Source: a virus. Taken from it: a stretch of 28,766 nucleotides of DNA. The notes under the pieces are model-generated. The model had not been told where the DNA came from. It was given only the letters and a program-made list of their open reading frames with translations, and made no database searches. The translations under genes were made by a program, and so were the position numbers. The DNA lies in the IMG/VR virus record IMGVR_UViG_3300034190_002235, positions 1 through 28,766 of that record; one strand, written 5' to 3'. This document shows positions 13,540 to 26,909 of the stretch, piece by piece (position 1 is the stretch's first letter; the number at the start of each line of letters is the position of its first letter).

Positions 13540-13570
13540 TGCACCGCCTTCAGCCTAGTGAACAACAGCT

Positions 13571-13637: not shown

Positions 13638-13656
13638 ACTAATTCCCGAATAACAG

Positions 13657-13785
13657 ATGGACCGTCGCACCTATTCAAATTGGGTCACGATTAAAGATGT
13701 GCTTGAAAAGGCTAAGAAGACCGATTCGTTTTTTTACCGCAGGGCGTGCGCCATTGTGGACGGCAAGCCGGATCCGCTAAAGTAA
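13657..13785 (+). CDS. Small hypothetical protein, 42 residues
   Basis: A short ORF starting ATG GAC CGT CGC with an in-frame TAA just upstream and ending at TAA 13783-13785. The peptide is basic and contains TIKDVLEKAKKTDSFFYRRA and a final VDGKPDPLK. It lies directly before the holin-like gene in the lysis region. The codon pattern looks coding and the 3' end abuts the next gene's SD (AGGAAGG). Function unknown. Confidence 0.5.
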   Translation: MDRRTYSNWVTIKDVLEKAKKTDSFFYRRACAIVDGKPDPLK

Positions 13786-13807
13786 TGAGGAAGGAAGCGC
13801 GTCAGCC

Positions 13808-14101
13808 GTGGTTGAAATCTTTGCCCCGCTGGCGGCAGCGTTTTTAGCGATTGTTGGGGATCGGGCTTTGAGCAGGCAGAACCGAGAACTGGCTAACACT
13901 CAACGCTCTCGCGACGAATTGAAAGAGACGATGATTGCGCTTGCCAAACTCACTGGGGCGGTGGAGCAAATTGGCAGCGCGTTGCAAGAGCTTCATTTGG
14001 ACATGAAAGCCGATCGATCTGCTATCTATGAACTGCTGACTGAACAAGGCAACCGCATTACAGCCCTAGAAGCCAAGGGGACTGGACTAAGACCAGAATA
14101 G
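13808..14101 (+). CDS. Small membrane protein with coiled coil (holin candidate)
   Basis: A 97-residue protein starting at GTG 13808, with AGGAAGG about 12 bases upstream. Residues 4-17 are a single hydrophobic segment (IFAPLAAAFLAIVG). The rest is a charged helix likely to form a coiled coil (residues ~20-90). This shape (one N-terminal membrane segment, long cytoplasmic or periplasmic coil) occurs in small lysis-cassette proteins such as class III holins and XhlA-type proteins. It sits about 230 bases upstream of the endolysin. A holin role is inference. Confidence 0.5.
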   Translation: MVEIFAPLAAAFLAIVGDRALSRQNRELANTQRSRDELKETMIALAKLTGAVEQIGSALQELHLDMKADRSAIYELLTEQGNRITALEAKGTGLRPE

Positions 14102-14158
14102 AGCCTGGTTCAATGAACGTTGAAAAGAAGTAGACTGCTTTCAGTTGCTTTTGTCGAA

Positions 14159-14320
14159 ATGGATACGCAGTCTGTAGGCCCCTGCGTTGGAGACACGCTT
14201 GCGATCATTGGCGGCGTTCTTTGGGTTTCAAGTGAACTCATTGGGATGTCTAGGCTTAAGAGCAACGGAAATATCCAGTTGGCACTAGAGATTTTGATGA
14301 AAGCATTTCCTAAGAACTAA
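14159..14320 (+). CDS. Small single-span membrane protein (lysis region)
   Basis: A 53-residue protein from ATG 14159. An upstream TTG at 14120 would add 13 residues; neither start has a good SD. Residues ~10-30 form one membrane helix (GDTLAIIGGVLWVSSELIGM), followed by a short polar tail. It lies eight bases before the endolysin gene, so it is a second holin or holin-partner candidate. No known motif was seen. Confidence 0.45.
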   Translation: MDTQSVGPCVGDTLAIIGGVLWVSSELIGMSRLKSNGNIQLALEILMKAFPKN

Positions 14321-14327
14321 TTGCTGT

Positions 14328-15536: not shown

Positions 15537-15646
15537 AGTGTGATCTGGCCTGACTGGAAGATTGGAGCAGCCTGTGCAGCATCAAGGGGTTTCATACATT
15601 TGGGGCGCAGAGAAGGCGGGCCAAGAGTACGCTGGGATTACTGAAA

Positions 15647-16165
15647 ATGACTGTGCTTTGCGACTGGGAAATTAAATCGCTTTGCGACGGCGGAGCAATG
15701 GAAGACTGGTCCGAAGATCTAATCAACCCGGCCTCGCTTGATGTGAGACTGGGCAGTGGGCTGATGATTGAAGTCGCTGGGCAAAAAGACCTGCTCCATG
15801 TTGACATCTCGAACAGAACTGAAAAGAACCCTTATCGATTAACCCCTGGAGAGTTCTGTCTTGCTGAGACACATGAAACGTTTAAAAAAATACCTGATCA
15901 CATTTGTGCTCAGTTTGCATTGAAGTCAAGTAGGGCTAGGGAGGGATACGAAAATTTGCTTGCTGGTTGGATAGATCCAGGCTTTTGTAACAGCAAACTA
16001 ACTCTTGAGCTTACAAACGTAAGGCGTCATTGCGATCTACCGTTATACCCTGGCCTAAAAATAGGCCAAATTGTATTTATGAGAATGAGTGAAATTCCCC
16101 TTGATAGTTACTCAAAAACTGGTCGCTATAACGGTGACGTAACGGTTCAAGGCAGTAAAGGATAA
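15647..16165 (+). CDS. dcd: dCTP deaminase
   Basis: A 172-residue member of the dCTP deaminase/dUTPase family, converting dCTP to dUTP (and ammonia). Family motifs are in order: INPASLDVRLG (27-36), KSSRAREG (93-100, with Ser94 and Arg98 corresponding to E. coli Ser111 and Arg115), AGWIDPGF (106-113) and TLELTN with Glu121 (E. coli Glu138). Retention of this Glu suggests deaminase rather than pure dUTPase; a bifunctional enzyme cannot be excluded by eye. The start at ATG 15647 aligns with the usual N-terminus. It feeds thymidylate synthesis together with the ThyX encoded on the other strand. Confidence 0.85.
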   Translation: MTVLCDWEIKSLCDGGAMEDWSEDLINPASLDVRLGSGLMIEVAGQKDLLHVDISNRTEKNPYRLTPGEFCLAETHETFKKIPDHICAQFALKSSRAREGYENLLAGWIDPGFCNSKLTLELTNVRRHCDLPLYPGLKIGQIVFMRMSEIPLDSYSKTGRYNGDVTVQGSKG

Positions 16166-16209
16166 AGCAAGGTAGCTGGCTAGCATTAAAAAGCCTGATA
16201 ACGGCATGA

Positions 16210-16842
16210 GTGACAGCTGATTTTAGGCAATGCAGGAGGAGCAGTCTGTGCAGAGAATATCTGCCAACAGATCAAATGACGCATGGCAAAAGCGGCTGGG
16301 TCTGCGATCCACGGAAATGCCCAAAGCGAGTGCCAGAAAATAGCATTTCTTATCAAGTAGAAAAACGTTATTTAACCACCGCAACAATTATGTTTTTAAC
16401 TTCAGCCAAAGAAGACCAAAGCCCTGAAGAGTTTAGTGAAATATTTGCTTCAAGACTGGAGGAGCTAACAGAAGAAATAATTAGCTTTGAGATGGAAGTG
16501 TTGCCTCTAAACGGAGGCTTTATTGGACATGAAATCATAGGGTCCGAGCTTGTACCAAAGAAAACAAGCAAGCACAGGTTCAGGCGTCAAATACTTGATG
16601 AATGGGACAATAGATGTGCTTACTGCGGCCAACCCGGAGACACCTTGGACCACATCCTTGCTAGGTCAAAAGGAGGCAGCATGAGCGTTGTAAACAATCT
16701 CGTATGCTGCTGCAAGTTTTGCAATGGATCGAAGTCCGACCGGCCAATGCTTGAATGGTTCCGAGATCAACCATTCTGGAGCCAAGGACGAGAAGACTGC
16801 ATCAAATACTGGATGGAGCACGGAACCCTAGACGAAACCTAA
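16210..16842 (+). CDS. HNH endonuclease with extra N-terminal cysteine cluster
   Basis: A 210-residue protein from GTG 16210 (the overlapping ATG at 16206 runs into a stop at once). The C-terminal part (about 120-185) is a zinc-bound HNH nuclease: CAYCG (Cys136, Cys139), LDHILARSKGGS (Asp147, His148), VNNLV, and CKFCNGSKSDR (Cys168, Cys171). The N-terminal 40 residues contain four more cysteines (8, 14, 32, 37), in a C…C…GWVC…C layout like a small zinc finger. It could be a homing-type or DNA-packaging-associated nuclease; its place next to dcd and away from the terminase favours a free-standing endonuclease. Its stop overlaps the convergent minus-strand stop. Confidence 0.8.
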   Translation: MTADFRQCRRSSLCREYLPTDQMTHGKSGWVCDPRKCPKRVPENSISYQVEKRYLTTATIMFLTSAKEDQSPEEFSEIFASRLEELTEEIISFEMEVLPLNGGFIGHEIIGSELVPKKTSKHRFRRQILDEWDNRCAYCGQPGDTLDHILARSKGGSMSVVNNLVCCCKFCNGSKSDRPMLEWFRDQPFWSQGREDCIKYWMEHGTLDET

Positions 16843-17081
16843 GGGCTCATCATGTGATACAAATAAGTCTTTGCACGCCAAAAATCATCTGAATATCTGC
16901 AAATAGCTCCACCAGGACTGCAAGCCCTGTAGTAAACGCCTTGGGTGTCGTCATTCAATATCTCAATGTAAAAACCATTGCCGAAATCTATCGCCCAGCC
17001 AGGGACATCAGTCGTTGATCCAAAAGGCCGAGCATTGGCTGGCAAATCTTCCGCCACTTGATTTCCCCTCGGCAAAACCAA
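16839..17081 (-). CDS. Hypothetical protein, 80 residues
   Basis: The last gene of the minus-strand block, with stop TAG overlapping the convergent HNH stop. Its ATG at 17081 lies 74 bases inside the upstream gene and there is no later ATG before the hydrophobic middle (PGWAIDFGNGFYIEIL). The true start may be a downstream GTG or TTG. The C-terminal part contains YYRACSPGGAICRYSDDFW. No family recognised. Confidence 0.5.
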   Translation of the reverse strand: MVLPRGNQVAEDLPANARPFGSTTDVPGWAIDFGNGFYIEILNDDTQGVYYRACSPGGAICRYSDDFWRAKTYLYHMMSP

Positions 17082-17316
17082 GACTGCATTCTGATTGTAC
17101 TAACTTCCAATGCAGGCACTGCCAACAATACGGCTTCGGATTAGCAACTGCACGCAAATCAGCATAAAGTTGCTCGCCCTGCAATATTGCGCTTTCGACA
17201 TTAGTTGCATCTAAAGCTATCTCAAAAGTGTCGGAGTTAGTGGTGATGCTTGCAATCCATTCTCCGCTTTTGTCGGAAATGTTTAATTTGCCAGAATGAG
17301 AGCGATGACTTGTCAT
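17008..17316 (-). CDS. Hypothetical cysteine-cluster protein, 102 residues
   Basis: The first ~55 residues are beta-rich and polar. The second half carries CWQCLHW (Cys64, Cys67), then Cys77 and Cys95 before SAFW, a spacing that could bind a zinc or iron-sulfur centre. ATG 17316 overlaps the stop of the preceding small gene (ATGA), so it is translationally coupled. The family is not recognised; metal binding is inference from the cysteine pattern. Confidence 0.5.
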   Translation of the reverse strand: MTSHRSHSGKLNISDKSGEWIASITTNSDTFEIALDATNVESAILQGEQLYADLRAVANPKPYCWQCLHWKLVQSECSLGFAEGKSSGGRFASQCSAFWIND

Positions 17317-17486
17317 TTGAGGCGATCAAGAAAGAAAGCTTTTAGCTCTTGCGCTGACGCCCGTGCGTCTGACTCAGTTTGCTCTAGGTTGCCCCAATAG
17401 ACAACTTTCCCATCAAAATACCAAGGCTTGAAGTATGATTCCACCCCGTGTGCAATTAGTTTTATGCCTGTTTCGTAATTGTTCAT
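17313..17486 (-). CDS. Small hypothetical protein, 57 residues
   Basis: A short ORF beginning MNNYETGIKLI, with GVESYFKPWYFDGKVVYWG in the middle and a helical C-terminus (ARASAQELKAFFLDRLK). It fills the space between two coupled neighbours, and its TGA overlaps the next ATG (ATGA). No SD precedes ATG 17486. Likely a real early gene of unknown function. Confidence 0.5.
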   Translation of the reverse strand: MNNYETGIKLIAHGVESYFKPWYFDGKVVYWGNLEQTESDARASAQELKAFFLDRLK

Positions 17487-17512
17487 GGCTTGTGTTAGGT
17501 TTTGTTTTCAAC

Positions 17513-17593
17513 TCAACCAATAGGAGACGTGTTGTCCTGAGGTGTATGGGGATCACCTGAACCAAGCCATGCAGGCGCGAGAGCCGGTGGCAT
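17513..17593 (-). CDS. Pro-rich micro-ORF, 26 residues
   Basis: ATG 17593 follows a very SD-like AGGAGGGG but with only about two bases of spacing. The peptide starts MPPALAPAWLGSGD and ends with DNTSPIG. It fits neatly between genes, 12 bases after one stop and 27 bases before the next start. It is too short for a functional call and may be a leader or coupling peptide. Confidence 0.35.
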   Translation of the reverse strand: MPPALAPAWLGSGDPHTPQDNTSPIG

Positions 17594-17604
17594 CCCCTCC
17601 TAAT

Positions 17605-17901
17605 TCAGTCGTGATTCAGAATCAGGTCTTTCTCCAAGGAACTCAGTTCTGTGGCAGCGCATACTCTCATTTGGTCGTGCTCAGATGATGAGTTGAAGCC
17701 ATCCCAGCGCACAGCAAGATATTTGCGTTGATGGCCATCTTTTCTGGTCTTAGTCCTAAGCTCTGTTACCGTACCAACCCGCGACGAATAGCGGCGCTGA
17801 TTCTCTGGCTTAACAGCAATACCAAGGTGAATGCGAGGCTTTTCAGCAACTCTATCGCCAACGGCAAACTTGAATGGTGTGCGGCGTGATTCTTTTTTCA
17901 T
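17605..17901 (-). CDS. Small basic SH3/KOW-like protein, 98 residues
   Basis: The sequence opens with a basic stretch (MKKESRRTPFKF), then AVGDRVAEKPRIHLG, a turn at RYSSRVGTVTEL and YLAVRWDGFNSSSEH. 'GDRV…GTV…VRWDG' is the signature of small SH3/KOW-like barrels that bind nucleic acid or protein. ATG 17901 overlaps the thyX stop (ATGA), so the two are co-translated. The fold is inferred from pattern; the function is not known. Confidence 0.55.
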   Translation of the reverse strand: MKKESRRTPFKFAVGDRVAEKPRIHLGIAVKPENQRRYSSRVGTVTELRTKTRKDGHQRKYLAVRWDGFNSSSEHDQMRVCAATELSSLEKDLILNHD

Positions 17902-18623
17902 GGTGCTAAGCGGGCCTTGCCCCAGCGATTTTTTGTGTACCAGTTATGGACTGAGGGAATCCAGTGCTCAAAATGAGGCATCATCATCTGGCACATCTGA
18001 TGAATTTCTATCTGTGCATCGGCCTTGCCCCGTAGATCAAGGAAGTGCATCAAGCTGCGCAGGTTAAACGTCACAACAAAATGCTGCCGGTAGTCAAACG
18101 GCAGCACTCCTCTTGCATGTTCTTCTGATATGCCAGCATCAAGAGCCTCTTTGTAGCGTCGAGCCGAGTCCTCGCAATGCTGAAGATCCTTTGCCCTTAA
18201 ACGCTCGTCGTAGGTGTACTTCTTGCCTTGGCGGTTGGTGTAATCACCAACAGGCCGCAGATAAAAAGCTTCCTCTACATCAACAACTCCTTCAGCAACC
18301 GCAGCAACTCGTTTACCGGTATAGCGCATCGACTGGACATCCCAGCTAGTGCCAACCCTATGCGTCCGGGCTTGTTGAATCACCGAGTGAGGGAAATAGC
18401 CCACAGCAAATGTAATACTGGCGTGCTCCAGTGGCCCGTAATGGCCGCGACCTCCTAGAAGTAGGTGCTTAACGATGCGATCACCAGCGTCTGATTCGCT
18501 AAGCGATTCGTCGTAAAACACCCAGCCTTCTGAGTAATCCTGGTGCATTGCCTGCCAACACAGCGTGGCTGGATCCCTGGTCCGGCTTAAAACGCCAACC
18601 TGAAAATATGGATCAATTTGCAT
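17898..18623 (-). CDS. thyX: Flavin-dependent thymidylate synthase ThyX
   Basis: A 241-residue enzyme that methylates dUMP to dTMP with methylene-tetrahydrofolate, FAD and NADPH. Visible motifs are GHYGPLEHASITF (60-72), the ThyX signature as RTHRVGTSWDVQSMRY (86-101), a variant of RHRxxSxxxxSxRY, then ARGVLP (Arg171) and NLRSLMHFLDLR (187-198) near the C-terminus. An SD (AGGAG) stands seven bases before ATG 18623, inside the upstream 55-residue ORF. The downstream SH3-like gene overlaps its stop. With the phage dCTP deaminase it would raise dTTP for phage DNA synthesis. ThyX is common in cyanobacteria and their phages. Confidence 0.93.
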   Translation of the reverse strand: MQIDPYFQVGVLSRTRDPATLCWQAMHQDYSEGWVFYDESLSESDAGDRIVKHLLLGGRGHYGPLEHASITFAVGYFPHSVIQQARTHRVGTSWDVQSMRYTGKRVAAVAEGVVDVEEAFYLRPVGDYTNRQGKKYTYDERLRAKDLQHCEDSARRYKEALDAGISEEHARGVLPFDYRQHFVVTFNLRSLMHFLDLRGKADAQIEIHQMCQMMMPHFEHWIPSVHNWYTKNRWGKARLAP

Positions 18624-18780
18624 CTTTAAGCTCCTGTACTAATTTTTTCAGTTCTTCGTCCTCCATTGAATCTACAGCCGACAAAAAGCCAGCTGTTACG
18701 GCTTGCACAAGACGTTCAGGGCTGAATAAAGCAAGCAAAGCCCCTGTAAAGCGAGCGTAAATGCCAAATTTAATTTTCAT
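18613..18780 (-). CDS. Small protein with one hydrophobic helix, 55 residues
   Basis: A short ORF from ATG 18780 in an ATGA overlap with the upstream stop. The N-terminal half is basic-hydrophobic (FTGALLALFSPERLV) and the C-terminus acidic (SMEDEELKKLVQELKDAN). Its 3' end contains the SD for thyX and overlaps its start by 11 bases. It might be membrane-associated; no family recognised. Confidence 0.5.
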   Translation of the reverse strand: MKIKFGIYARFTGALLALFSPERLVQAVTAGFLSAVDSMEDEELKKLVQELKDAN

Positions 18781-18941
18781 TGGCCATGCATCTCCAGTAC
18801 ATGTTGAATGCCGCGAATGTAGCCATCCCAGTAACGGGAATCGCCTTGACGGCGTTGAAGGCTTTTTTCGTAATTGCTGTAGCCGTCAATCAGAAGACCT
18901 TTGACTGACTCAATACTGACTTCGAGTGGCTTTTCATCCAT
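18777..18941 (-). CDS. Small hypothetical protein, 54 residues
   Basis: ATG 18941 overlaps the end of the preceding gene by eight bases. The peptide (MDEKPLEVSIES… to …VLEMHGQ) contains YEKSLQRRQGDSRYWDGYIRG and looks mostly helical. The stop overlaps the next ATG. Spacing on both sides supports a real gene in this coupled operon; the function is unknown. Confidence 0.5.
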   Translation of the reverse strand: MDEKPLEVSIESVKGLLIDGYSNYEKSLQRRQGDSRYWDGYIRGIQHVLEMHGQ

Positions 18942-19323
18942 TGGATTCTGAGCGAGCGATTACCGAGGCTTCAGCTTGGATTTTTTTCAGTGAAACAGGC
19001 CCAAGTTCTTCTAAAAGAATGCGAAGGAAATGATCTTGGTACAGTTCGTCATAACTTTTCGGAAGCGGTTTGTTCATCGCTTCAATCTTGGCCGCAAATT
19101 GCGTCGAGATCCTTAGCTTTTTTTTGGCCCGATAGCACCATTCAGTGTCGGGCGCATAGCCATGCTTCTCTTCAAAGCTTGAAACCTCCGCCAAAGAGGC
19201 TGTGATCTCATTAATACAGTCAATAAGCTCATGGTAAAGCTTGCGAAGCTCATTCGTTCCGAGATGTGGAAGCTCTGTGGCGAGAATCGATCTGTCTAGC
19301 GAAATGCTGTTGTAAATTGCCAT
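18934..19323 (-). CDS. Helical hypothetical protein, 129 residues
   Basis: Predicted by pattern as mostly helix: a coiled-coil-like stretch (LRKLYHELIDCINEITASLAEV, about 26-47) and a second helix pair near 90-120 (DHFLRILLEELGPVSLKKI). ATG 19323 directly follows the U-tract of a terminator hairpin, so there is no room for an SD on that transcript. No alternative ATG lies nearby. Function unknown. Confidence 0.55.
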   Translation of the reverse strand: MAIYNSISLDRSILATELPHLGTNELRKLYHELIDCINEITASLAEVSSFEEKHGYAPDTEWCYRAKKKLRISTQFAAKIEAMNKPLPKSYDELYQDHFLRILLEELGPVSLKKIQAEASVIARSESNG

Positions 19324-19324
19324 T

Positions 19325-19354
19325 TTAAAATAAGGGGCAGAGTGACTCTGCCCC
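19325..19354 (-). terminator. Rho-independent terminator inside the minus-strand operon
   Basis: On the minus strand GGGGCAGAG, loop TCA, CTCTGCCCC (a perfect 9-bp stem, plus coordinates 19346-19354 and 19334-19342) is followed by TTATTTT. It stands ten bases after the stop of the SSB-like gene and ends two bases before the next ATG. This is the best terminator in the minus block. Confidence 0.85.
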
Positions 19355-19363
19355 GATAAGGGT

Positions 19364-19732
19364 TTAGAAGAGGTCGTCTACAACGTTGCCGTCAGTGGCC
19401 TTAGCCACAGACTGGGCAGCGTCATTGACAGCGCCTTCAGTGTTCTTTTCGTACTTGTAGTGAGGCTTGAAACTCAGACTGATGTAAGTCTTGCCGCTCG
19501 ATGATTGCTTCTTCCAGCCGCTGATAGCAAGAGGGATTTCATTGCGCTCACCAATTGGCTTGCCTTGCATGATGTACTCCGCCAAAGCGTAAGCTTGATC
19601 AGCAGGAATATTAACTATCCCGTCAACGGTAGGGTAGTTTTTAGAAGGATCGTACCTATCTTTCATTCGAGCCTTCATGTCCTCAGCGGTCTGAGGGAAC
19701 AAAGCCCCATTTACTGAAAATGAATCGGTCAT
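19364..19732 (-). CDS. Putative single-stranded DNA-binding (SSB-like) protein
   Basis: A 122-residue protein. The central part (VNIPADQAYALAEYIM, then EIPLAISGWKKQSSSGKTYISLSF, about 41-88) reads as an OB-fold-like strand pattern with basic and aromatic residues. The chain ends in a low-complexity linker and an acidic hydrophobic tip, DGNVVDDLF, as in SSB proteins that recruit partners through such a tip. A terminator right behind it suggests high expression, also fitting an SSB. Its start overlaps the previous stop (ATGA). Direct homology to known SSBs is not clear by eye, so the role is inferred. Confidence 0.55.
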   Translation of the reverse strand: MTDSFSVNGALFPQTAEDMKARMKDRYDPSKNYPTVDGIVNIPADQAYALAEYIMQGKPIGERNEIPLAISGWKKQSSSGKTYISLSFKPHYKYEKNTEGAVNDAAQSVAKATDGNVVDDLF

Positions 19733-20004
19733 GATTTTGTTTTGCAGATGATGTAGCAGCCGTTTTTGGCTGACTCGGACTGAACTGAATACTTGTACTG
19801 AGATGATTCCTTGGTCATACGACCAGTGATTTGAGCGATAGTGCTGGCTTTGAAGCCTTCATTGCTTTCCTTGTTGTAGTAAGAAACAAAAAGGCTAGTC
19901 TCAGGAGTCAAGGAAGAAATCTTCTCCCGTAGCGGGGTCGTTTTACTGTGTCGGCTTGTGCGTGCTGGAATGTCAGCAGCATTGACAACCTCAATGGAAG
20001 GCAT
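19729..20004 (-). CDS. Hypothetical protein, 91 residues
   Basis: A basic protein starting MPSIEVVNAADIPARTSRHS, with an alternating strand-rich core (ETSLFVSYYNKES…YKYSVQS) and a final KNGCYIICKTKS. A central …IAQITGRMTKES resembles a small DNA-binding helix pair, but I do not recognise the family. It is coupled to the SSB-like gene by an ATGA overlap, so a role in DNA replication or recombination is plausible from context only. Confidence 0.5.
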   Translation of the reverse strand: MPSIEVVNAADIPARTSRHSKTTPLREKISSLTPETSLFVSYYNKESNEGFKASTIAQITGRMTKESSQYKYSVQSESAKNGCYIICKTKS

Positions 20005-20031
20005 AAAAGGTCTTAGCTTGCGAGAAATACT

Positions 20032-20568
20032 TTAACTCAAGCTTGCGATTTTAGCAATAAGCTGATTATACTCCTCCTCCGAAAGATCGTTGGAAGCCCG
20101 TAGTTCCGAAATACGCTGTTGAATCGAATCAAGTTGCGATGGGTCAGCCTCGTCGATCTTTTTCATTGCAGGCTTGAATACATTGGTCGGGTGAAGCCGC
20201 TGCACAACCTTGCGGCGTTTAGGCGGTGTCCACTCGCAAGTAATTTCTTCGTCAATTTCAGGGGAGCCATAGACACGAATGCAAGGTTCGTCCTTGCGGA
20301 GCGGGTAGGGCATGACCTGATTGGTCGCGTAGAAAGTTACACGCCGTCCAGGCCACAACGCCACATCGTTACCCAAAAGCTTGATCAATGGAATGGCATT
20401 GATTTTGGCCAAGGTCAGTTCAGGGTTAATTTCCTGAAACGACATGATCGTTTGAAGCTTGGGCTCCTGATCATCAAAGGCCACCTCAGCTGTACGAACG
20501 TCTTTGACTGTCAGAGTCATGCGCCCGGAAGCCGGGAACATAAAAGCTTTTAGCCAAGGCTCATTCAT
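20032..20568 (-). CDS. Conserved phage protein of the recombination neighbourhood
   Basis: A 178-residue protein. I chose ATG 20568 because TAGGTGATCT places an SD just before it; ATG 20589 in a TGATG overlap with the upstream stop would add seven residues. The core (INAIPLIKLLGNDVALWPGRRVTFY, about 55-80) matches a conserved phage family that usually sits beside RecE/Cas4-like nucleases and SSB. Its biochemical role is not established to my knowledge. The C-terminus (LDSIQQRISELRAS…EEEYNQLIAKI) is a helical tail likely to mediate oligomerisation. Confidence 0.6.
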   Translation of the reverse strand: MNEPWLKAFMFPASGRMTLTVKDVRTAEVAFDDQEPKLQTIMSFQEINPELTLAKINAIPLIKLLGNDVALWPGRRVTFYATNQVMPYPLRKDEPCIRVYGSPEIDEEITCEWTPPKRRKVVQRLHPTNVFKPAMKKIDEADPSQLDSIQQRISELRASNDLSEEEYNQLIAKIASLS

Positions 20569-20588
20569 TAGATCACCTACAAATTCCA

Positions 20589-21419
20589 TCAAACTCCCTC
20601 CAATAAATCAGCAACGTCAGTGTCATTGGCTGGATCATCAACTTGAAACCAGCGTGGAGCTTCCATCGTATTAATGCCCCACGATGGCCACTCGTTAGCT
20701 CCGCGACAAGACTTGATGCCTTCAATCGCATCGTCACGACGCTGACGGCCAACCTCCAACAGCTCATCGCTGATGATATTCACCGAGTAATTGAACGGAT
20801 ACACCCACTCGTAAGCCAGCAACACGATCTGCTTTGGATAAGCGCCGTGGCGGTCTAAATAGCCCTCACGATAATGTACAACCTGAATATCGTACGCAAG
20901 CGCAAATGACTGCCTTGCGAAATCGCGTGGGTTTGCACTGCGAGCTTTTTTTAGATCCACTAGCAAGCCGTCTTCTGGTTGCTCTAAATCCGGCAGGTAA
21001 CGGCAATCAACATCGTTATCAGCGTCATGCCAGAAATGAGGCACCTGACCCGAACCCTGCAAAAACTCAGAGGCAATCGGATCATTCTTGAGCTTGCTAA
21101 CGATCAACTGGGCAGTGTGGTGCCACTCCTCAGTGATCAGATCTGCACACTTGGAGCGGGCAAGTTCTTGAGCCTCTGCCCAAATTTCTTTGCCTGCTTT
21201 TGTGCGACGGTCCGCTCTTGGGGCAACGACGTATTTATTGCTGAACTTTTCGGGCTCCGTGATCAAACAGTCAACCAATGAGCCCTGGCGCATTGCGTCA
21301 GATGGCACCATCGGCATACGGTCTGGATCTTCATGAGCAGCCCAAAAGTCAAGTGCTGTGCCGCAAGCGTATTTTTTAAGCTTGCTAGCTGATAATGCGG
21401 GATGATCGTGATAATTCAT
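20589..21419 (-). CDS. PD-(D/E)XK exonuclease, RecE/Cas4-like
   Basis: A 276-residue nuclease. It begins MNYHDHPALSASKLKKYAC, as many phage RecE/exoVIII-like proteins do, with a small-residue turn at RQGSLVDCLI (44-53). The catalytic core is PD (143-144) followed by VDLKKA (Asp155, Lys157), then RDFARQSFALAYDIQ with Gln170 and Tyr176, a QxxxY motif. Enzymes of this family degrade one strand of duplex ends to prepare them for annealing. The neighbours (conserved recombination protein, SSB-like protein, DEDDh exonuclease) fit a homologous-recombination module. No RecT/Beta annealase is visible in the window. Confidence 0.75.
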   Translation of the reverse strand: MNYHDHPALSASKLKKYACGTALDFWAAHEDPDRMPMVPSDAMRQGSLVDCLITEPEKFSNKYVVAPRADRRTKAGKEIWAEAQELARSKCADLITEEWHHTAQLIVSKLKNDPIASEFLQGSGQVPHFWHDADNDVDCRYLPDLEQPEDGLLVDLKKARSANPRDFARQSFALAYDIQVVHYREGYLDRHGAYPKQIVLLAYEWVYPFNYSVNIISDELLEVGRQRRDDAIEGIKSCRGANEWPSWGINTMEAPRWFQVDDPANDTDVADLLEGV

Positions 21420-21610
21420 TGGTTTGGTAATTGAAGGTCCATTTCAATCCAGTAATGGCGCATTTCGCCATCACCAAGCAGTAGCCGTGCATCCTCGATC
21501 AGGTCTTCATCAGTACCGCCGGGGTAGCCGATAACGCACCAACTGCCGTCTCCGGCGGATGCAGCCAAGGCTCGCACATTGACCGCTACGGGCACAGCTT
21601 TGCTTGTCAT
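21416..21610 (-). CDS. Small hypothetical protein, 64 residues
   Basis: Starts at ATG 21610, 47 bases after the DEDDh exonuclease stop, and its TGA overlaps the next ATG (ATGA). The sequence runs MTSKAVPVAVNVRALAAS, then WCVIGYPGGTDEDLIEDARLL and ends with WIEMDLQLPNQ. It has the strand-helix-strand rhythm of a small alpha/beta domain. A second open frame on the same strand (to 21707) is longer by three bases but poorly placed. Function unknown. Confidence 0.5.
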   Translation of the reverse strand: MTSKAVPVAVNVRALAASAGDGSWCVIGYPGGTDEDLIEDARLLLGDGEMRHYWIEMDLQLPNQ

Positions 21611-21657
21611 TCAAAAACGCAACGATGCTTGCAAGACAAACAATACCACTCTTTCGA

Positions 21658-22341
21658 CTAATCGGCAATAGAGACCGAGAAATCCAGTGCAGCGGCTTCA
21701 TGTTCATTCATCTTCTTTGCCCACATCTTTGGAACCAGATTGTTCCAAGTGAACCCAGCGTCTTTGCAGTGCTGGCGCTGTTCGTACCCCAAATTACTGA
21801 CGTAGACATGCCTTGGCAGCAAGGCATTCTCAATCAGCTGCTCTAGCTGGGGCTCACGCTTCATGACCTCGGCCAGATAAACGCAATCCGTGAGAGCACG
21901 GTGAGCGTTCCAAACCGGCACCCCGTAGTCGACGGAAAGCGACATCACGGACGGACGGCTTCGCTTGCTGCTCAATGGCCACTGAATATCGTCCATGGTG
22001 CAGATCCACCTCAAAGGCATCGCGGGCAGTGAGCCCCTCCCTCCAAACCATTGCTGGTCGAAAGCCGCATTGTGAGCTACCGCGTAATCAGCTTCAGCGA
22101 CCATCGCCCAAAACGATGCCGCCATTGGACTCGTCAGGTCAGGCGCTCTCATTGTTAAAGCAGGCTGTATCCGATTCACAAACTCAGCTTCGTTTGTCAA
22201 TGTCGGCAGCAGGAACGACACTTGGCAAATAATCGAACGCAACTCAACATCAAACAGCACAGCTCCCAGCTCAATCACCGCGCTGTCGGCTGGAGTCAAT
22301 CCAGTCGTTTCCGTATCGATGATCAATAATTTCATGGCCAT
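21658..22341 (-). CDS. DEDDh 3'-5' exonuclease (DnaQ-like)
   Basis: A 227-residue exonuclease. Exo I is IIDTETTG with Asp9 and Glu11; Exo II is AHNAAFDQQWF with Asp95; Exo III is AHRALTDCVYLA with His147 and Asp152. This is the full DEDDh set. After about residue 165 comes a C-terminal extension (LPRHVYVSNLG…FTWNNLVPKMWAKKMN) often seen in phage exonucleases of this type. It may act in proofreading or in trimming 3' ends during recombination; no polymerase is in the window. The start could be ATG 22341 or the second ATG two codons later. Confidence 0.85.
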   Translation of the reverse strand: MAMKLLIIDTETTGLTPADSAVIELGAVLFDVELRSIICQVSFLLPTLTNEAEFVNRIQPALTMRAPDLTSPMAASFWAMVAEADYAVAHNAAFDQQWFGGRGSLPAMPLRWICTMDDIQWPLSSKRSRPSVMSLSVDYGVPVWNAHRALTDCVYLAEVMKREPQLEQLIENALLPRHVYVSNLGYEQRQHCKDAGFTWNNLVPKMWAKKMNEHEAAALDFSVSIAD

Positions 22342-22423
22342 GGGGGTTCAATCTCCAGTGGTAAATTTCAAGTAATCGTTTGTCTGATTCTGCAATCAGA
22401 CGCTTGGCTTCAGCGTTAGTCAT
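22271..22423 (-). CDS. Small hypothetical ORF, 50 residues, overlapping the exonuclease start
   Basis: ATG 22423 overlaps the upstream stop. The peptide begins MTNAEAKRLIAESDKRLLEI and ends in a region that overlaps the first 71 bases of the exonuclease gene in another frame. The first half looks like a genuine amphipathic helix. The second half may simply be read-through into exonuclease sequence. A real gene is possible; confidence is limited. Confidence 0.35.
   Translation of the reverse strand: MTNAEAKRLIAESDKRLLEIYHWRLNPHGHEIIDHRYGNDWIDSSRQRGD
22382..22401. other. Perfect 8-bp hairpin
   Basis: GTCTGATT and AATCAGAC flank a four-base loop (CTGC on the plus strand). No T-run follows on either strand. 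On the minus strand it lies about 40 bases before the exonuclease start and could act as an mRNA structure. Confidence 0.3.
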
Positions 22424-22613
22424 CAACAATGCACAACGAAAGCAAAGCCTTGGACCTGCCTTTGAGCTTCTTTAACGCACCGTGATAGCTCATCGCGTTG
22501 ATGATTTCAGAGTGCTCTAATCCGCTTTTTTCGCGAAATGTTGCCTCAAACCGCAACATCTTGGAAGCCTCTTCCCTTCCGGGAGATTCTTCGATACCAG
22601 CATCACGCATCAT
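22416..22613 (-). CDS. Hypothetical protein, ~65 residues
   Basis: Stop TAA at 22416. I place the start at ATG 22613, an 11-base overlap with the zinc-ribbon gene; ATGs at 22628, 22634 and 22658 would extend it by 5 to 15 residues. The body is helical and basic (MLRFEATFREKSGLEHSEII, then HGALKKLKGRSKALL). No SD distinguishes the starts and no family was recognised. Confidence 0.45.
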   Translation of the reverse strand: MMRDAGIEESPGREEASKMLRFEATFREKSGLEHSEIINAMSYHGALKKLKGRSKALLSLCIVDD

Positions 22614-23033: not shown

Positions 23034-23134
23034 CAATCCTCCGACCGAGACTCTTTGGCCTTAGCCTTTTGTTTTGCAATTCGCATCGCTTTGGCGTACT
23101 GCTCTTTCAGGTATCGAATGAATGCTGGTGTCAC
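23033..23134 (-). CDS. Basic micro-ORF, 33 residues
   Basis: GTG 23134 overlaps the preceding TGA by four bases (GTGA), with AGGAG 11 bases upstream. The peptide (VTPAFIRYLKEQYAKAMRIA then a Lys-rich KQKAKAKES) is one strongly basic helix. Its double stop TGATGA gives the next gene's ATG. It might be a small DNA- or RNA-binding peptide; this is inference. Confidence 0.45.
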   Translation of the reverse strand: MTPAFIRYLKEQYAKAMRIAKQKAKAKESRSED

Positions 23135-23298
23135 GAAAAGTTGTTCTCCTGTTGGGTGATTGGCGCTTGCTTGATAAGCTTTAGAAGCAGGTCGCGCTGA
23201 CGACGGAAAACGGCAACCGTGGCTGCATAGGCAGCTTCAGCTGCAGCAAACGGCCAACAGCAGTTGCGACAGGCCGGGTCATGCTGTCGCCTCTTCAT
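23131..23298 (-). CDS. Truncated member of the Ala-rich repeat family, 55 residues
   Basis: ATG 23298 overlaps the stop of the gpJ-fragment gene (ATGA). After a cysteine-containing start (DPACRNCCWPF) it has a short Ala-rich piece (AAAEAAYAATVAVF) and then FRRQRDLLLKLIKQAPITQQ, nearly identical to the C-terminus of the three full-length paralogues at 24702, 25455 and 26307. The N-terminal ~150 residues of the family are missing. It is a relic or a minimal version of the conserved C-terminal module, ending in the same glutamine-rich cassette. Confidence 0.55.
   Translation of the reverse strand: MKRRQHDPACRNCCWPFAAAEAAYAATVAVFRRQRDLLLKLIKQAPITQQENNFS
23132..23158 (-). promoter_or_regulatory. 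CAA/CAGGAG junction cassette (short)
   Basis: ATCACCCAACAGGAGAACAA encodes ITQQENN, the end of the truncated Ala-rich protein, and gives the SD for GTG 23134. Confidence 0.6.
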
Positions 23299-23597
23299 CG
23301 TCGCATACGGACAATATACTTTGCCGTATTAATTGCGCGTTCCCTGCTCGTGCAATAAGAACTCATGTCAATCCGCTCGATTGGATCTGTAGCTGATGCG
23401 CTTTCTGTAACAAACTCAAGCAATGCTTTCGGGCTTATTAACCCGTGTTGTGGTGTTACTGCGCCATTGTTGAACTTGTCATAGCGCCCCGCGATGATGT
23501 CGTTTTTGGCTAGTTCCAAAGAGCCTACGATCTCAATCACGCTGGGCCCTTCAGTTTCTGCGATCAGGTCGTCGAGAGCGTTAAGGAATTGTTCCAT
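23295..23597 (-). CDS. Small early gene built from two permuted gpJ fragments
   Basis: A 100-residue protein from ATG 23597 (AGGAGG 12 bases upstream). Residues 1-38 (MEQFLNALDDLIAETEG…) have no match in the window. Residues ~39-59 (YDKFNNGAVTP…SPKAL) match gpJ-like residues 986-1006, and residues ~67-100 (SATDPIERIDMSSYCTSRE…IVRMRR) match gpJ residues ~919-953. The order is therefore swapped relative to the tail gene, with the reading frame kept in both pieces. Identity is about 85-88% at the DNA level by eye. Function unknown; it may be a functional chimera or a relic. Confidence 0.55.
   Translation of the reverse strand: MEQFLNALDDLIAETEGPSVIEIVGSLELAKNDIIAGRYDKFNNGAVTPQHGLISPKALLEFVTESASATDPIERIDMSSYCTSRERAINTAKYIVRMRR
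23296..23397 (-). repeat. Diverged copy of J segment 7400-7501
   Basis: The reverse complement runs parallel to plus-strand 7400-7501, from ATCAGCTACAGATCCA to CGTATGCG, without gaps and with about 14 mismatches in 90 positions compared by eye. Many mismatches are at third codon positions. Confidence 0.85.
23421..23483 (-). repeat. Diverged copy of J segment 7599-7661
   Basis: The reverse complement matches plus-strand 7599-7661 over 63 bases, with a near-identical core AGTTCAACAATGGCGCAGTA and about 7 mismatches. It lies upstream of the other J segment in reading direction, whereas in J it is downstream. Confidence 0.85.
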
Positions 23598-23628
23598 GCT
23601 GCTACTTGTCCTCCTGTTGTTGTGAATT
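23595..23628 (-). promoter_or_regulatory. CAA/CAGGAGG junction cassette
   Basis: CACAACAACAGGAGGACAAG encodes the SQQQEDK end of the Lar-like protein and places AGGAGG before ATG 23597 of the J-fragment gene. Confidence 0.6.
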
Positions 23629-23823
23629 TGACTTGTGAAGTCTTTCTTGAGCGTTGTTCCAGCGACATATCGCGCGATGACGGCTGCCACAAGCTTTTGT
23701 GGCTGTGTGATTGTTGTTGCAAATAACTCTCCACCGAAAATCCAAATCGAAACATTTAGCTTTTGCACCGCACTTGGCACATAAAGCAATGGGTGGCGTA
23801 ATTGCCCTTTGTGTATTTCGCAT
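23602..23823 (-). CDS. Lar-like zinc-ribbon protein (restriction alleviation family-like)
   Basis: A 73-residue protein with CAKCGAKAK (Cys15, Cys18), WRVICNNN (Cys35), Cys45 and AICRWNNAQ (51-59). The order C-x2-C, 'W.V.C', a second Cys, and a final 'AI..WN' is the pattern of the small Lar-type proteins common in phages. Lar of Rac modulates type I restriction-modification; most homologues are untested. The ending SNSQQQEDK is encoded by the CAA-CAGGAG junction cassette, whose SD serves the next gene. Confidence 0.6.
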   Translation of the reverse strand: MRNTQRAITPPIALCAKCGAKAKCFDLDFRWRVICNNNHTATKACGSRHRAICRWNNAQERLHKSNSQQQEDK

Positions 23824-23829
23824 CAGTCG

Positions 23830-23898
23830 TCAGCCTTCGGGTCTTTTCATGAAGCTGACAAGTTTAAGCACTTGCTCAAGTGTGATTTTTTCAGTCAT
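23830..23898 (-). pseudogene. Truncated copy of the HGDV-repeat gene N-terminus (22-residue ORF)
   Basis: ATG 23898 follows a CAGGAG cassette. The peptide MTEKITLEQVLKLVSFMKRP ends after two more residues (EG). It matches the first 22 residues of the gene at 24379-24702 (MTEQLTLRQATELVSFMKRP) and then meets a stop where that gene continues into its tetrapeptide repeats. It may be a relic, or may survive as a coupling peptide for the Lar-like gene seven bases further on. Confidence 0.55.
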
Positions 23899-24379
23899 TG
23901 TTGTTCTCCTGTTGTTGTTGATGATAGATGTGCAAATCTCCAATCAACGTGTGCATTTCTAAAAACCAAGTAACATTCACGCCTTTTCCTGCTTCAATGT
24001 ACCTGCTAGCCGCTAACACAAGTTCATGCAACCTTTTGGTTTTCCAAATATAATCAGGTTCGATACCAATAGGGGGACGAAAAGATTTTTGTTCGGTTTC
24101 TTGTTGTGGGCGCATTGAGTTTAATACTTCGCCGAAGGCAAAGATTTTTGGGTACTTAGCGGCAAGCTCTTTAGCAGCTTTATCATTTAGCGATCTAACG
24201 CCATGTTCAAGATCAGACTGAAAAGCGTCTTCCCATGCGTTCACCACCTCCTCCAATTGCCAATCTGCGGCAGCACGCATGTCGTCATAGAGGTAGACGA
24301 CATCGCCAATGTCGCCAGACCATATATTTTCGGTGGCGATCACTTCGCACATTTCATCAGTCAGTCTGTGTTCAGTCAT
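23891..24379 (-). CDS. Acidic hypothetical protein, 162 residues
   Basis: Starts at ATG 24379 in a TAATG overlap with the HGDV-repeat gene. Content is helical and acidic: MTEHRLTDEMCEVIATENIW, a middle part VYLYDDMRAAADWQLEEVV, and a second helical block near 110-145 (LHELVLAASRYIEAGKG). The C-terminus HQQQQENNND is written by the repeated CAA-CAGGAG junction cassette and overlaps the next ATG. No domain recognised; it is probably an early accessory protein. Confidence 0.6.
   Translation of the reverse strand: MTEHRLTDEMCEVIATENIWSGDIGDVVYLYDDMRAAADWQLEEVVNAWEDAFQSDLEHGVRSLNDKAAKELAAKYPKIFAFGEVLNSMRPQQETEQKSFRPPIGIEPDYIWKTKRLHELVLAASRYIEAGKGVNVTWFLEMHTLIGDLHIYHQQQQENNND
23896..23922 (-). promoter_or_regulatory. 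CAA/CAGGAG junction cassette (SD plus poly-Gln codons)
   Basis: CAACAACAACAGGAG then AACAACAATG: encodes QQQQENN and supplies a full AGGAG SD, nine bases before ATG 23898. Confidence 0.65.
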
Positions 24380-24393
24380 TAGTTGTTCTGATG
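24377..24393 (-). promoter_or_regulatory. Degenerate junction cassette
   Basis: CATCAGAACAACTAATG keeps the AACAACTAATG part but has lost the GGA core. It couples the xGDV gene to the acidic 162-residue gene. Confidence 0.45.
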
Positions 24394-24702
24394 TAGTTGA
24401 TTAAATGCTTCAATTAGTTCTTGATCTCCAGACTCCAGGATTAAACGCTCAAGCTTTTCTTGGGGAGTTTCAACGGACTCCCACCTTCTGCCACTGATTC
24501 TGCCACGGACATCACCACGGACATCACCAAGGACATCACCATGGACATCACCATCGACATAACCAAAGACATCACCATGGACACCACCATGGACATCACC
24601 ATGGACATCACCATGGACAGTCAGCACCTTCCAGTTACCTCCGGGTCTTTTCATGAAGCTGACAAGCTCAGTCGCTTGCCTAAGTGTGAGTTGTTCCGTC
24701 AT
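24379..24702 (-). CDS. Tetrapeptide (xGDV) repeat protein, 107 residues
   Basis: ATG 24702 overlaps the upstream stop (TAATG), with the cassette SD (CAGGA) before it; a longer open frame upstream lies over the Ala-rich gene and is not used. Residues 1-28 are a helical head (MTEQLTLRQATELVSFMKRP). Residues ~33-72 are about ten GDV-type tetrapeptides (HGDV, LGDV, RGDV) encoded by a 12-bp tandem repeat. Residues ~75-107 are a helical tail (EKLERLILESGDQELIEAF). Such repeats often form small beta-solenoid-like structures and are common in phage hypothetical proteins. Function unknown; the repeat number is probably variable. Confidence 0.65.
   Translation of the reverse strand: MTEQLTLRQATELVSFMKRPGGNWKVLTVHGDVHGDVHGGVHGDVFGYVDGDVHGDVLGDVRGDVRGRISGRRWESVETPQEKLERLILESGDQELIEAFNQLHQNN
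24503..24620 (-). repeat. 12-bp tandem repeat, about ten units
   Basis: On the plus strand the unit is GGACATCACCAT with small variants (CAC, CAA, one CGACATAAC, one GGACACCAC). Roughly ten units run head to tail and all keep the frame of the xGDV protein. The most uniform units are at the right-hand (N-terminal) end. Confidence 0.85.
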
Positions 24703-24735
24703 TAGTTGTCCTGTTGTTGTTGTTGTTGGGTGATT
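24700..24735 (-). promoter_or_regulatory. CAA/CAGGA junction cassette (SD plus poly-Gln codons)
   Basis: Same cassette ending CAGGACAACTAATG. It encodes the QQQQQQDN end of paralogue A and is the SD of the xGDV-repeat gene. Confidence 0.65.
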
Positions 24736-25391
24736 GGCGCTGCCTTGATGAGATTTAAGAGAAGGTCGCGCTGACGACGGCAAGCGGCAAACCTGGCAGC
24801 CAATGGTCCCAAGGCTGCATCGTCGTTGATACCGTCGGCGGCGTTGGCAGCAGCCTTGGCAGCCCAGTCAGTATCACTGGCTCCCCTGTCATAAGCAGCA
24901 GTGGCTGCCCAGTAAGCAGGCCAAACAGTTTCGTCGGCTGCATTGGCAGCAGCTTTAGCATCTTCTTCAGGCCACTCCTTACCCTCCGCCAGTAGGTCCA
25001 TCCCGTCGATAACGGTATCGATAATTGCCTGCATTCCTGGCTCGACTGGTGGGAGCGAACGCAGCTCCGCCGCAAGGAATTGCCACACAACGCGGCTGAG
25101 GTCTTTCCCGTCAGACTCAATGGCATCAGGAAACGCCGCAAAGAACGCAGGCGCTTCGTCTGGCGGAAGCTCTTCAAAAATTATTTCAGCGATGCGGCTT
25201 ACCGCCAAAGGGATGCCGTACTCACTTTCAATGAAATCAGGGAGATCCTTTCCTCCAGCTAAACAACCAATGAAGCCAGTCTTGTAGCTGCCTTGCGCAA
25301 CCTGATCGGCTGCAACGTGAGCAGAAACTTCGGTCTGTAACTGATGAAAGTTTTTGGTAAGCATTAGATTGGGTTGATTACTTAAAGCCAT
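24702..25391 (-). CDS. Ala-rich repeat protein, paralogue A (229 residues)
   Basis: The first of three full paralogues. The start may be ATG 25391 (MALSNQ…) or ATG 25364 (MLTKNFHQ), the latter matching the relic at 26193. Residues ~10-55 form a head with FIGCLAGGKDLPDFIESEYG, then a conserved domain (SRIAEIIFEELPPDEAPAFF, KDLSRVVWQFLAAELRSLPP, VIDGMDLLAEGKEW). An Ala-rich helical stretch with W/D spacers (about 135-200) follows, then RRQRDLLLNLIKAAPITQ and a poly-Gln end. The Ala-rich part is the shortest and least regular of the three. I know similar phage and bacterial proteins but no tested function. Confidence 0.65.
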   Translation of the reverse strand: MALSNQPNLMLTKNFHQLQTEVSAHVAADQVAQGSYKTGFIGCLAGGKDLPDFIESEYGIPLAVSRIAEIIFEELPPDEAPAFFAAFPDAIESDGKDLSRVVWQFLAAELRSLPPVEPGMQAIIDTVIDGMDLLAEGKEWPEEDAKAAANAADETVWPAYWAATAAYDRGASDTDWAAKAAANAADGINDDAALGPLAARFAACRRQRDLLLNLIKAAPITQQQQQQDN

Positions 25392-25459
25392 TGATTCCGC
25401 CCCAGACGATTAGGACAAAACCAATAACGAAGACTGTTGCGATTAGAAAATCAATCATG
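25367..25459. repeat. 93-bp perfect direct repeat, copy 1
   Basis: Identical base for base to 26223-26315 when compared by eye. It contains the whole 26-residue membrane ORF plus 11 bases beyond its stop. The flanks differ. Confidence 0.95.
25378..25458 (-). CDS. 26-residue membrane peptide, copy 1
   Basis: ATG 25458 overlaps the stop of paralogue B (ATGA) and follows the cassette SD. The peptide starts MIDFLIATVFVIGFVLIVWG and ends INGFK: one membrane-spanning helix with an acidic start and basic end. An identical copy exists at 26234-26314. Position and perfect conservation suggest it is made. The role could be membrane targeting, superinfection exclusion or inhibition, but nothing in the sequence decides. 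Confidence 0.55.
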   Translation of the reverse strand: MIDFLIATVFVIGFVLIVWGGINGFK

Positions 25460-26090
25460 AGTTGTCCTGTTGTTGTTGTTGTTGGGTGACCGGCGCTTCT
25501 TGGATGAGCTTTAGAAGCAGGTCGCGTTGACGACGGCGAGTGGCAACCCTGGCAGCTTCGGCAGCAGCTTCGGCAGCAGCCCAGCCAGCATCGGCAGCAG
25601 CTTCGGCAGCAGCCCTGGCAGTAGCCCAGCCAGCATCGGCAGTAGCTTCGGCAGCAGCCCTGGCAGTAGACCAGCCAGCAGCCTGGGCAGCCCTGTCAGC
25701 AGCACTGGCAGCAGCCCAGCCAGCCCAGTTAGCAGCCCTGCCAGCATCGGCTGCGGCCCAGTCAGCAGTCCTGGCAGCAGCCCAGCCAGCAGCCTGGGCA
25801 GCACTGGCAGCAGCTTCGGCGTCTCCTTCGGACCATTCCTTACCCTGTGCAAGCAGGTCAATCCCGTCGATGACGGTATCGATAGCTGCTTGAACCTCTG
25901 GCGTTCCTGGTGGCAGTGAACGCAGCTCCGCAGCAAGGAATTGCCACACAACGCGGCTAAGGTCTTTGCCGTTGCACTCGATAGCAGCAGAGAATGCCGC
26001 AAAGAACGCAGGCGCTTCGTCTGAAGGCAACCCCTCAAAAATTGATTCAGCAATGCGAGATACCGCCAAAAAGTTTTTAGTAAATAACAT
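25455..26090 (-). CDS. Ala-rich repeat protein, paralogue B (211 residues)
   Basis: ATG 26090 (MLFTKNFLAVSRIAESIF) overlaps the 38-residue relic ORF; a GTG five codons earlier is less likely. The conserved domain (ESIFEGLPSDEAPAFFAAF, KDLSRVVWQFLAAELRSLPP, IDGIDLLAQGKEW) is followed by the longest Ala-rich stretch (about 95-185), which includes a near-perfect 15-residue tandem unit (W-TARAAAEA-ADAG). It ends RRRQRDLLLKLIQEAPVTQ plus a poly-Gln tail from the CAA cassette. Compared with paralogue A it has lost the N-terminal head, now stranded as the separate ORF at 26077-26193. Confidence 0.65.
   Translation of the reverse strand: MLFTKNFLAVSRIAESIFEGLPSDEAPAFFAAFSAAIECNGKDLSRVVWQFLAAELRSLPPGTPEVQAAIDTVIDGIDLLAQGKEWSEGDAEAAASAAQAAGWAAARTADWAAADAGRAANWAGWAAASAADRAAQAAGWSTARAAAEATADAGWATARAAAEAAADAGWAAAEAAAEAARVATRRRQRDLLLKLIQEAPVTQQQQQQDNS
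25456..25490 (-). promoter_or_regulatory. CAA/CAGGA junction cassette (SD plus poly-Gln codons)
   Basis: Minus strand: ACCCAA, a CAA run, CAGGACAACTC, then ATG. The CAA codons encode the QQQQQQ tail of paralogue B, and the AGGA acts as SD for the 26-residue membrane ORF. Confidence 0.6.
25588..25677 (-). repeat. 45-bp tandem repeat, two units
   Basis: Units 25588-25632 and 25633-25677 differ at two of 45 positions. A shorter related piece precedes them at 25564-25587. In frame they encode a 15-residue Ala-rich unit of paralogue B. Confidence 0.85.
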
Positions 26091-26193
26091 TGATTCCGTA
26101 CTCACTTTCGATAAACTCAGGGGAATCCTTTTGCTTGGCTAAATAACCAATGAAGCGGGTGTCGTATGGTTGGTGGAAATTTTTGGTAAGCAT
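26077..26193 (-). pseudogene. Detached N-terminal head of the Ala-rich family (38-residue ORF)
   Basis: ATG 26193 follows a degenerate CAA cassette (AACAACAAAAAGAGAACACC then TAATG). The peptide MLTKNFHQPYDTRFIGYLAK…SPEFIESEYGI ends NVIY. It matches the first part of paralogue A (MLTKNFHQ…TGFIGCLAGGKDLPDFIESEYGI) with a deletion in the middle, then runs off frame at the point where paralogue B begins with MLFTKNF. It is most simply a split remnant of an originally longer gene. Confidence 0.6.
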
Positions 26194-26223
26194 TAGGTGT
26201 TCTCTTTTTGTTGTTATTGGGTG
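26191..26223 (-). promoter_or_regulatory. Degenerate, non-coding junction cassette
   Basis: CACCCAATAACAACAAAAAG then AGAACACCTAATG: the same layout, but the SD core has decayed and the CAA run is no longer in a gene. It precedes the relic ORF at 26193. Confidence 0.5.
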
Positions 26224-26315
26224 ATTGGGTTGATTACTTAAAGCCATTGATTCCGCCCCAGACGATTAGGACAAAACCAATAACGAAGACTGTTGCGATT
26301 AGAAAATCAATCATG
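26223..26315. repeat. 93-bp perfect direct repeat, copy 2
   Basis: Second copy of the unit at 25367-25459, 856 bases away, with no mismatch found. It contains the second 26-residue membrane ORF. Confidence 0.95.
26234..26314 (-). CDS. 26-residue membrane peptide, copy 2
   Basis: Identical in DNA and protein to copy 1 (25378-25458). ATG 26314 overlaps the last eight bases of paralogue C, but no CAGGAG cassette precedes it here, so its translation would rely on coupling only. Perfect identity with a neighbour whose flanks have diverged points to a recent duplication or to gene conversion. Confidence 0.5.
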   Translation of the reverse strand: MIDFLIATVFVIGFVLIVWGGINGFK

Positions 26316-26909
26316 GGTTTCATTCACCAGGAGAGCAACTGATGACACGCCCACTGACTGGGTGATTGGTGCTTCTGCAATGAGCTTTAGAAGTAGGTCG
26401 CGCTGGCGACGGCGAGTGGCAACCTTGGCAGTAGCCCAGTCAGCCCTGTCAGTAGCCCAGCCAGCACTGTCAATAGCCCAGGTAGCACTGTCAGCAGCCC
26501 AGCCAGCAGTCCAGCCAGCAGCACTCTCAGTAGCACTGGCAGCAGCCCTGGCAGCAGCCCAGTCAGCAGCCCTGGTAGCATCCCTGGCAGAGGCAACCCT
26601 GGCAGCAGCACTGGCAGCAGCACTGGCAGCAGCACTGGCATCCTCTTCGGACCACTCCTTACCCTCCGACAGGAGGTCCATCCCGTCGATGACAGGATCA
26701 ATAACTGCCTGAATTTCTGGCTCAACTGGTGGGAGCGAACGCAATTCAGCAGCAAGGAATTGCCACACAACGCGGCTGAGGTCTTTGCCGTCAGACTCAA
26801 TGGCAGCAGAGTATGCCGCAAAGAACGCAGCCGCTTCGTCTGAAGGCAACCCCTCAAAAATTGATTCAGCGATGCGGCTTATCGCCAAAAAGTTTTTAGT
26901 AAATAACAC
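26307..26909 (-). CDS. Ala-rich repeat protein, paralogue C (200 residues)
   Basis: Starts at GTG 26909 (MLFTKNFLAISRIAESIF). The conserved domain (EGLPSDEAAAFFAAYSAAIE, KDLSRVVWQFLAAELRSLPP, IDGMDLLSEGKEW) is close to B. The Ala-rich part has W-A-x-D/S-x spacers (AADWAAARAA, then GWATDRADWATAK). It ends RRRQRDLLLKLIAEAPITQ, but instead of poly-Gln continues SVGVSSVALLVNETHD, because the junction cassette here appears replaced, perhaps inverted. It overlaps the second membrane-peptide start by eight bases. Confidence 0.6.
   Translation of the reverse strand: MLFTKNFLAISRIAESIFEGLPSDEAAAFFAAYSAAIESDGKDLSRVVWQFLAAELRSLPPVEPEIQAVIDPVIDGMDLLSEGKEWSEEDASAAASAAASAAARVASARDATRAADWAAARAAASATESAAGWTAGWAADSATWAIDSAGWATDRADWATAKVATRRRQRDLLLKLIAEAPITQSVGVSSVALLVNETHD

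Follow-up and report, generated by a model that had tools for sequence, protein, structure and literature searches.

How did a short gene in the early region of a phage come to carry, in a single reading frame, two pieces of the tail-tip hub gene J in an order opposite to that found in J itself? The window analysed here is the whole stretch of 28,766 nucleotides (positions 1 to 28,766 of virus record IMGVR_UViG_3300034190_002235). Among named phages its J is nearest to those of the Synechococcus siphophages S-LBS1, S-CBS1 and S-CBS3, and because of this resemblance, distant as it is (26-30% identity), a cyanobacterial host is probable for this siphovirus. The composite at its early locus [Table 1] is genuine, has a clear anatomy and is best read as a relic of recombination. 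In our judgement, the chimeric ORF is probably a patchwork left behind by illegitimate, template-switching recombination between the late genes of related siphoviruses and is now drifting without any J-like function. A previous, sequence-only reading of this locus was right about the two J fragments, which are in frame and have changed places; the head that it called unrelated is not so, and the selection on the protein that it suggested lacks support.

Table 1. Features of the composite, its neighbours and its J source family in the window.
Feature	Position	Strand	Remarks
J, tail-tip hub protein, source family of blocks A and B	4644-7946	+	phrog_27845, phrog_31; lambda tail-tip fold
55-aa ORF	23131-23298	-	Downstream neighbour of the chimeric ORF
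3' end of 53-aa gene and start of 42-aa neighbour	23234-23302	-	81-92% identical to intact loci
Chimeric ORF, 100 aa	23295-23597	-	ATG start at 23597, stop at 23295
J block A (J residues 921-952)	23299-23402	-	Counterpart 7396-7498 (+); 103 nt, 85% over 23299-23401
Filler between B and A, 18 nt, CTTGAGTTTGTTACAGAA	23403-23420	-	
J block B (J residues 986-1006)	23421-23483	-	Counterpart 7599-7661 (+); 63 nt, 89%
5' part of 53-aa gene	23486-23603	-	DNA identity to intact loci up to 91.5%
73-aa ORF	23602-23823	-	Directly upstream of the chimeric ORF; phrog_6308, E = 0.002

Translation of the minus strand yields one uninterrupted frame that leads from a head of 37 residues through block B to block A, the protein being composed of MEQFLNALDDLIAETEGPSVIEIVGSLELAKNDIIAG, R, YDKFNNGAVTPQHGLISPKAL, LEFVTESAS and ATDPIERIDMSSYCTSRERAINTAKYIVRMRR, in this order; in J, block A precedes block B and about 100 nt of other sequence lie between them. 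A repeat search recovered the same inverted pairs that had been reported earlier, and the window has no other inverted pair of 30 nt or longer. The E-values of the matches of the two blocks to J (2.5e-27 and 1.8e-16 by blastn; 5e-14 and 9e-7 by tblastn) are so low that chance is excluded. The filler that joins the blocks is unmatched, with up to three mismatches allowed, in all fetched loci and in the rest of the window. Homology breaks off abruptly inside genes at 23486/23483, 23421/23402, 23302/23299 and 23234/23227, with short or no homology at the breaks, which is the pattern of a product of illegitimate phage recombination.

The whole composite measures about 370 bp and lies within a minus-strand, repeat-rich early region, in an array of small genes that includes three paralogous Ala-rich genes and fragments of these, one of which (23227-23140) adjoins the composite on its downstream side. 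AGGAGG is found 12 nt upstream of the chimeric ORF, whose start lies 5 nt past the TAG of the 73-aa ORF, a gene without clear family to which it is probably translationally coupled. At the other end, the TGA of the chimeric ORF and the ATG of the 55-aa ORF overlap; the latter ORF traverses the end of the 53-aa gene out of frame and then a C-terminal fragment derived from the Ala-rich paralogues.

The head, previously described as unrelated, is in fact the N-terminus of a conserved protein of 53-57 amino acids encoded by an intact gene in more than 40 IMG/VR contigs, and the same gene resumes after the J insert. Its order in G003 and L091 is terminase, a 329/340-aa gene, the 53-aa gene, a 42-aa gene and a 453-aa gene, and the 69 nt that follow the J scraps comprise the last part of the 53-aa gene and the first part of the 42-aa gene. 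In intact copies (e.g. those of L004 and L093), only 26 bp separate the two flanking stretches, so that J-derived DNA (23485 to ~23303) has replaced 26 bp within one gene. That both flanks of the insert trace to one intact gene in this way argues for a relic of recombination. The insert of approximately 184 nt consists of 2 nt, block B, the 18-nt filler and block A; the net change in length is not a multiple of three and, therefore, the original C-terminus falls out of frame and an immediate TGA stop ensues. With the family defined by a full protein of 53-57 amino acids ending in EEATA and followed by the 42-aa gene, the chimeric ORF lies outside of it, as it keeps the N-terminal 37 residues, has its C-terminus replaced and leaves the remainder out of frame. 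Three of its head residues are novel at sites that are invariant among 24 distinct intact sequences of the family. Neither the chimeric ORF nor the 53-aa protein matched any Pfam family or had a significant hit in PHROGs, and a search of genome contigs returned no relatives of the 53-aa protein.

Which J provided the two blocks? Block B is nearest to the window's own J (7/63 nt differ), whereas block A is nearest to the J's of L036 and L045 (12/96 nt differ) and is led in by SASATDP, as in L036-type J's, where the window's own J has HEDMGGSATDP. Aligned with an L036-type J, block A also reaches some 5 nt further into the chimeric ORF (23299-23406, 89%). Because of this lead-in, and because the two blocks are nearest to different J's, the donor was probably a J allele of the group to which these belong, and not the one that the genome carries today. 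Of the three origins put forward earlier, a remnant of another phage's J is thus the one that fits best. None of the phages compared contains near-identical pieces that would mark it as the donor, a point against the relic reading. G003 carries a J of this group as well as the 53-aa gene, which means that single phages hold both sources. The sister phage L036 itself matches the window at about 90% identity over 15610-22451 and then in parts beyond, lacks 23234-23833 and hence has no composite at its early region. The absence of the composite from a phage that is 90% identical over the adjacent early sequence likewise favours a relic, as does a comparable event in L036, where a 73-aa in-frame copy of fibre-gene sequence sits inside J.

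We favour a scenario in which two patches templated by an L036-like J allele were inserted and the sequence then drifted under relaxed selection. A broken end inside the 53-aa gene would have been extended by copying J, giving block B; copying would then have slipped back by about 250 nt on the same J template, giving block A, before the end was joined to the 53-aa gene again through a microhomology of a few bases within CGACGATG. A single template copied with a backward jump would explain why the blocks share one orientation and stand in swapped order, no separate inversion being needed. Before or after the insertion of J sequence, the repaired gene end would have been relocated to its place beside a ribosome-binding site of the early region and a fragment of one of the Ala-rich paralogues. 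The resulting 100-aa protein would be translatable and, with selection on its J residues gone, would be drifting. We infer this mechanism from the end product: the common orientation of the blocks, their swapped order, the 18-nt filler, the 26 bp lost and the resumption of the interrupted gene are all in keeping with it. A tandem duplication of J followed by a deletion is another possible route to the swapped order, but no tandem J was seen.

The divergence of the blocks from J had been taken, on account of frequent third-position changes, as a sign of selection on the protein. The differences between the chimera and the window's J are in fact distributed 8/6/8 over codon positions 1/2/3, and all seven nucleotide differences in block B are nonsynonymous, with none at third positions. 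Since about 75% of sites are nonsynonymous, such a pattern has a chance of ~0.13 under neutrality and is not evidence of positive selection. The two synonymous differences in the CGA CGA that ends block A are probably not substitutions but sequence of the 53-aa gene where it resumes (GACGATGAAG). In pairwise counts against a set of 48 J's, blocks A and B together are separated from the J's closest to them by 21-22 changes in 159 nt and by 11-13 in 53 residues; the 192 (non-independent) J-J pairs that are 14-24 nt apart differ on average by 3.2 residues and by 8 at most. Seven residues of the chimera occur in none of the 48 J's, several of them at invariant sites, and H, D, A, G and T at invariant or near-invariant J positions have been replaced. 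The dN/dS of the two blocks is 0.36-0.55 relative to L036, L045 and the window's J, compared to a median of 0.055 and a 95th percentile of 0.17 among J's. These values and the broken J residues lend no support to the proposed selection and favour a relic; part of the divergence of A and B may predate their capture. With 0.05-0.11 changes per site and over a range of indel rates, the probability of an intact frame under pure drift is ~0.007-0.65, which allows drift but does not prove it.

The survival of the frame through all three pieces, and the neat packing of the ORF in its array behind a Shine-Dalgarno sequence, nevertheless count against a mere relic and raise the question of whether a new early gene has been born, in the form of a selected protein with a head hairpin and a J-derived tail whose function is unrelated to that of J. 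A frame that stays open over 100 codons, the AGGAGG motif, the tight coupling to both neighbours and a dN/dS below 1 are consistent with such a protein, although the last of these could be explained by evolution prior to capture. The substitutions strike conserved positions in all three pieces, the predicted fold is not confident (pLDDT 60 for a poor single-sequence model), and no relatives of the chimeric ORF were found in IMG/VR or in phage GenBank (tblastn and blastn for the latter). We consider a selected new gene unlikely.

Structure prediction bears on whether the J-derived part could still behave as J. A model of J residues 697-1100 built from 37 relatives (pLDDT 78) matches the lambda tail-tip hub with an E-value of ~1e-17; in this model, block A forms one strand and a long helix, and block B a short hairpin. 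The core strands that join them (model residues 260-284) are missing from the chimera, and A plus B is not a J domain. The chimeric ORF descends in part from a hub protein of the lambda gpJ type (8xcg, 8iyk, 8k35) but differs from it in having only B followed by A, some 53 permuted residues devoid of core strands, with a best PHROG match of E = 0.083, and is not a J protein. This makes improbable the decoy or mimic proposed by the sequence-only reading. Such an early protein would pose as a piece of J and might, for instance, poison the assembly of J in a co-infecting phage or block superinfection. In-frame J peptides encoded outside of the late region are what such a decoy would consist of; yet invariant J residues are lost along with the strands between the blocks, and no conservation is apparent, homologous chimeras having been found neither in IMG/VR nor in phage GenBank. 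We regard a decoy as very improbable. Only marginally more credible, and still a long shot on the sequence at hand, is a new early protein in which a permuted hub piece grafted on a packaging-side protein would impair J assembly or adsorption of related phages. Antisense regulation of J was rejected, as the early transcript holds the J pieces in the sense of the J mRNA.

A further suggestion, that the locus serves as a donor for J variation, whether by gene conversion or as the template of a pair resembling that of a diversity-generating retroelement, draws on the presence of homologous inverted segments within one genome. It calls for J alleles that bear the private changes of the chimera; none of the 48 J's carries the seven private residues. 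The fragments are also interrupted by filler and foreign gene sequence, and the mismatches between block B and the window's J (G/A, G/C, C/G and A/C) are not restricted to adenines as they would be in a diversity-generating retroelement. A donor cassette is, in our view, the least credible of the explanations discussed here.

The junctions are known from one contig only, which also counts against a relic and leads to the question of misassembly. When the head-B and B-A junctions were sought in IMG/VR as degenerate patterns, no second contig came up, in a search from which the records nearest to the window's genome may be left out. L006, which belongs to the same species, independently confirms positions 1-16301 of the window, the composite locus being beyond its reach. 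A single metagenomic contig with junctions seen nowhere else is what an assembly chimera would look like. Mis-joined reads of a real J and a real head would, however, not be expected to give three junctions in about 200 nt, nor private substitutions at sites invariant in J as well as at sites invariant in the head. An assembly chimera accordingly appears improbable, if somewhat less so than a decoy.

Comparisons of phage genomes indicate that exchanges mostly preserve gene order, since broken combinations are lost. Templated insertion by template switching during break repair is an established concept, mostly from eukaryotes. The composite resembles its products, in which a break receives short patches of sequence from other places, together with small losses, filler and microhomology, and differs in that it occurs in a phage and is known from its product alone. 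Small gene fragments are reported to be exchanged between phages far more often than complete modules (PMC3945230), and phage recombinases are tolerant of diverged DNA (PMC3945230; PMC2327257). The composite is akin to phage mosaicism by illegitimate or relaxed homologous recombination (PMC3945230; PMC2327257), in which sub-gene fragments are exchanged between related phages. An exonuclease VIII-like protein (phrog_412, DUF3799) is encoded at 20589-21419 of the window; the ORFs scanned included no recognisable annealing protein. Unlike classic mosaicism, in which synteny is kept, it is non-allelic, with two permuted J patches in an unrelated small gene outside of the late operon, and an event of this kind needs illegitimate joining. 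What the locus preserves is a non-allelic, multi-patch event with both flanks readable, so that the steps of illegitimate recombination (the 26-bp loss, the two J patches, the backward jump, the filler and the microhomology) can be followed. It shows a possible route for the birth of chimeric small ORFs in repeat-rich early regions and is a warning not to take fragments of structural genes for functional mimics just because they are in frame.

We also note a number of other features of the window and its relatives. Searches of Rfam revealed no RNA family, and promoters and terminators were in no excess over shuffled sequences. An HNH endonuclease ORF (16210-16842; Pfam HNH_5 and HNH over cut-off) adjoins a dCTP deaminase-like gene. 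The three Ala-rich paralogous early genes on the minus strand (24702-25391, 25455-26105 and 26307-26909) belong to no assigned family, contain long 12-bp repeats of the AAxAGWAA type and are represented by a single copy in L036; a repeat pair associated with them in position (D8; 25367-25463 and 26223-26319) is 99% identical, which points to recent duplication. Within ORF 24379-24783, positions 24479-24631 form a 12-bp repeat array coding for GDVHGDV repeats, and the corresponding array of L036 is shorter and varied. The J of L031 (L031:4220-4801) extends about 200 residues beyond the usual end of J and is apparently fused to the following ORF. Finally, the J insert of 73 amino acids in L036, which duplicates part of this phage's own tail-fibre gene at 87% DNA identity (L036:12174-12396 and L036:15357-15579), is absent from the other J's examined and represents a second, apparently productive, case of copying from one tail gene to another.
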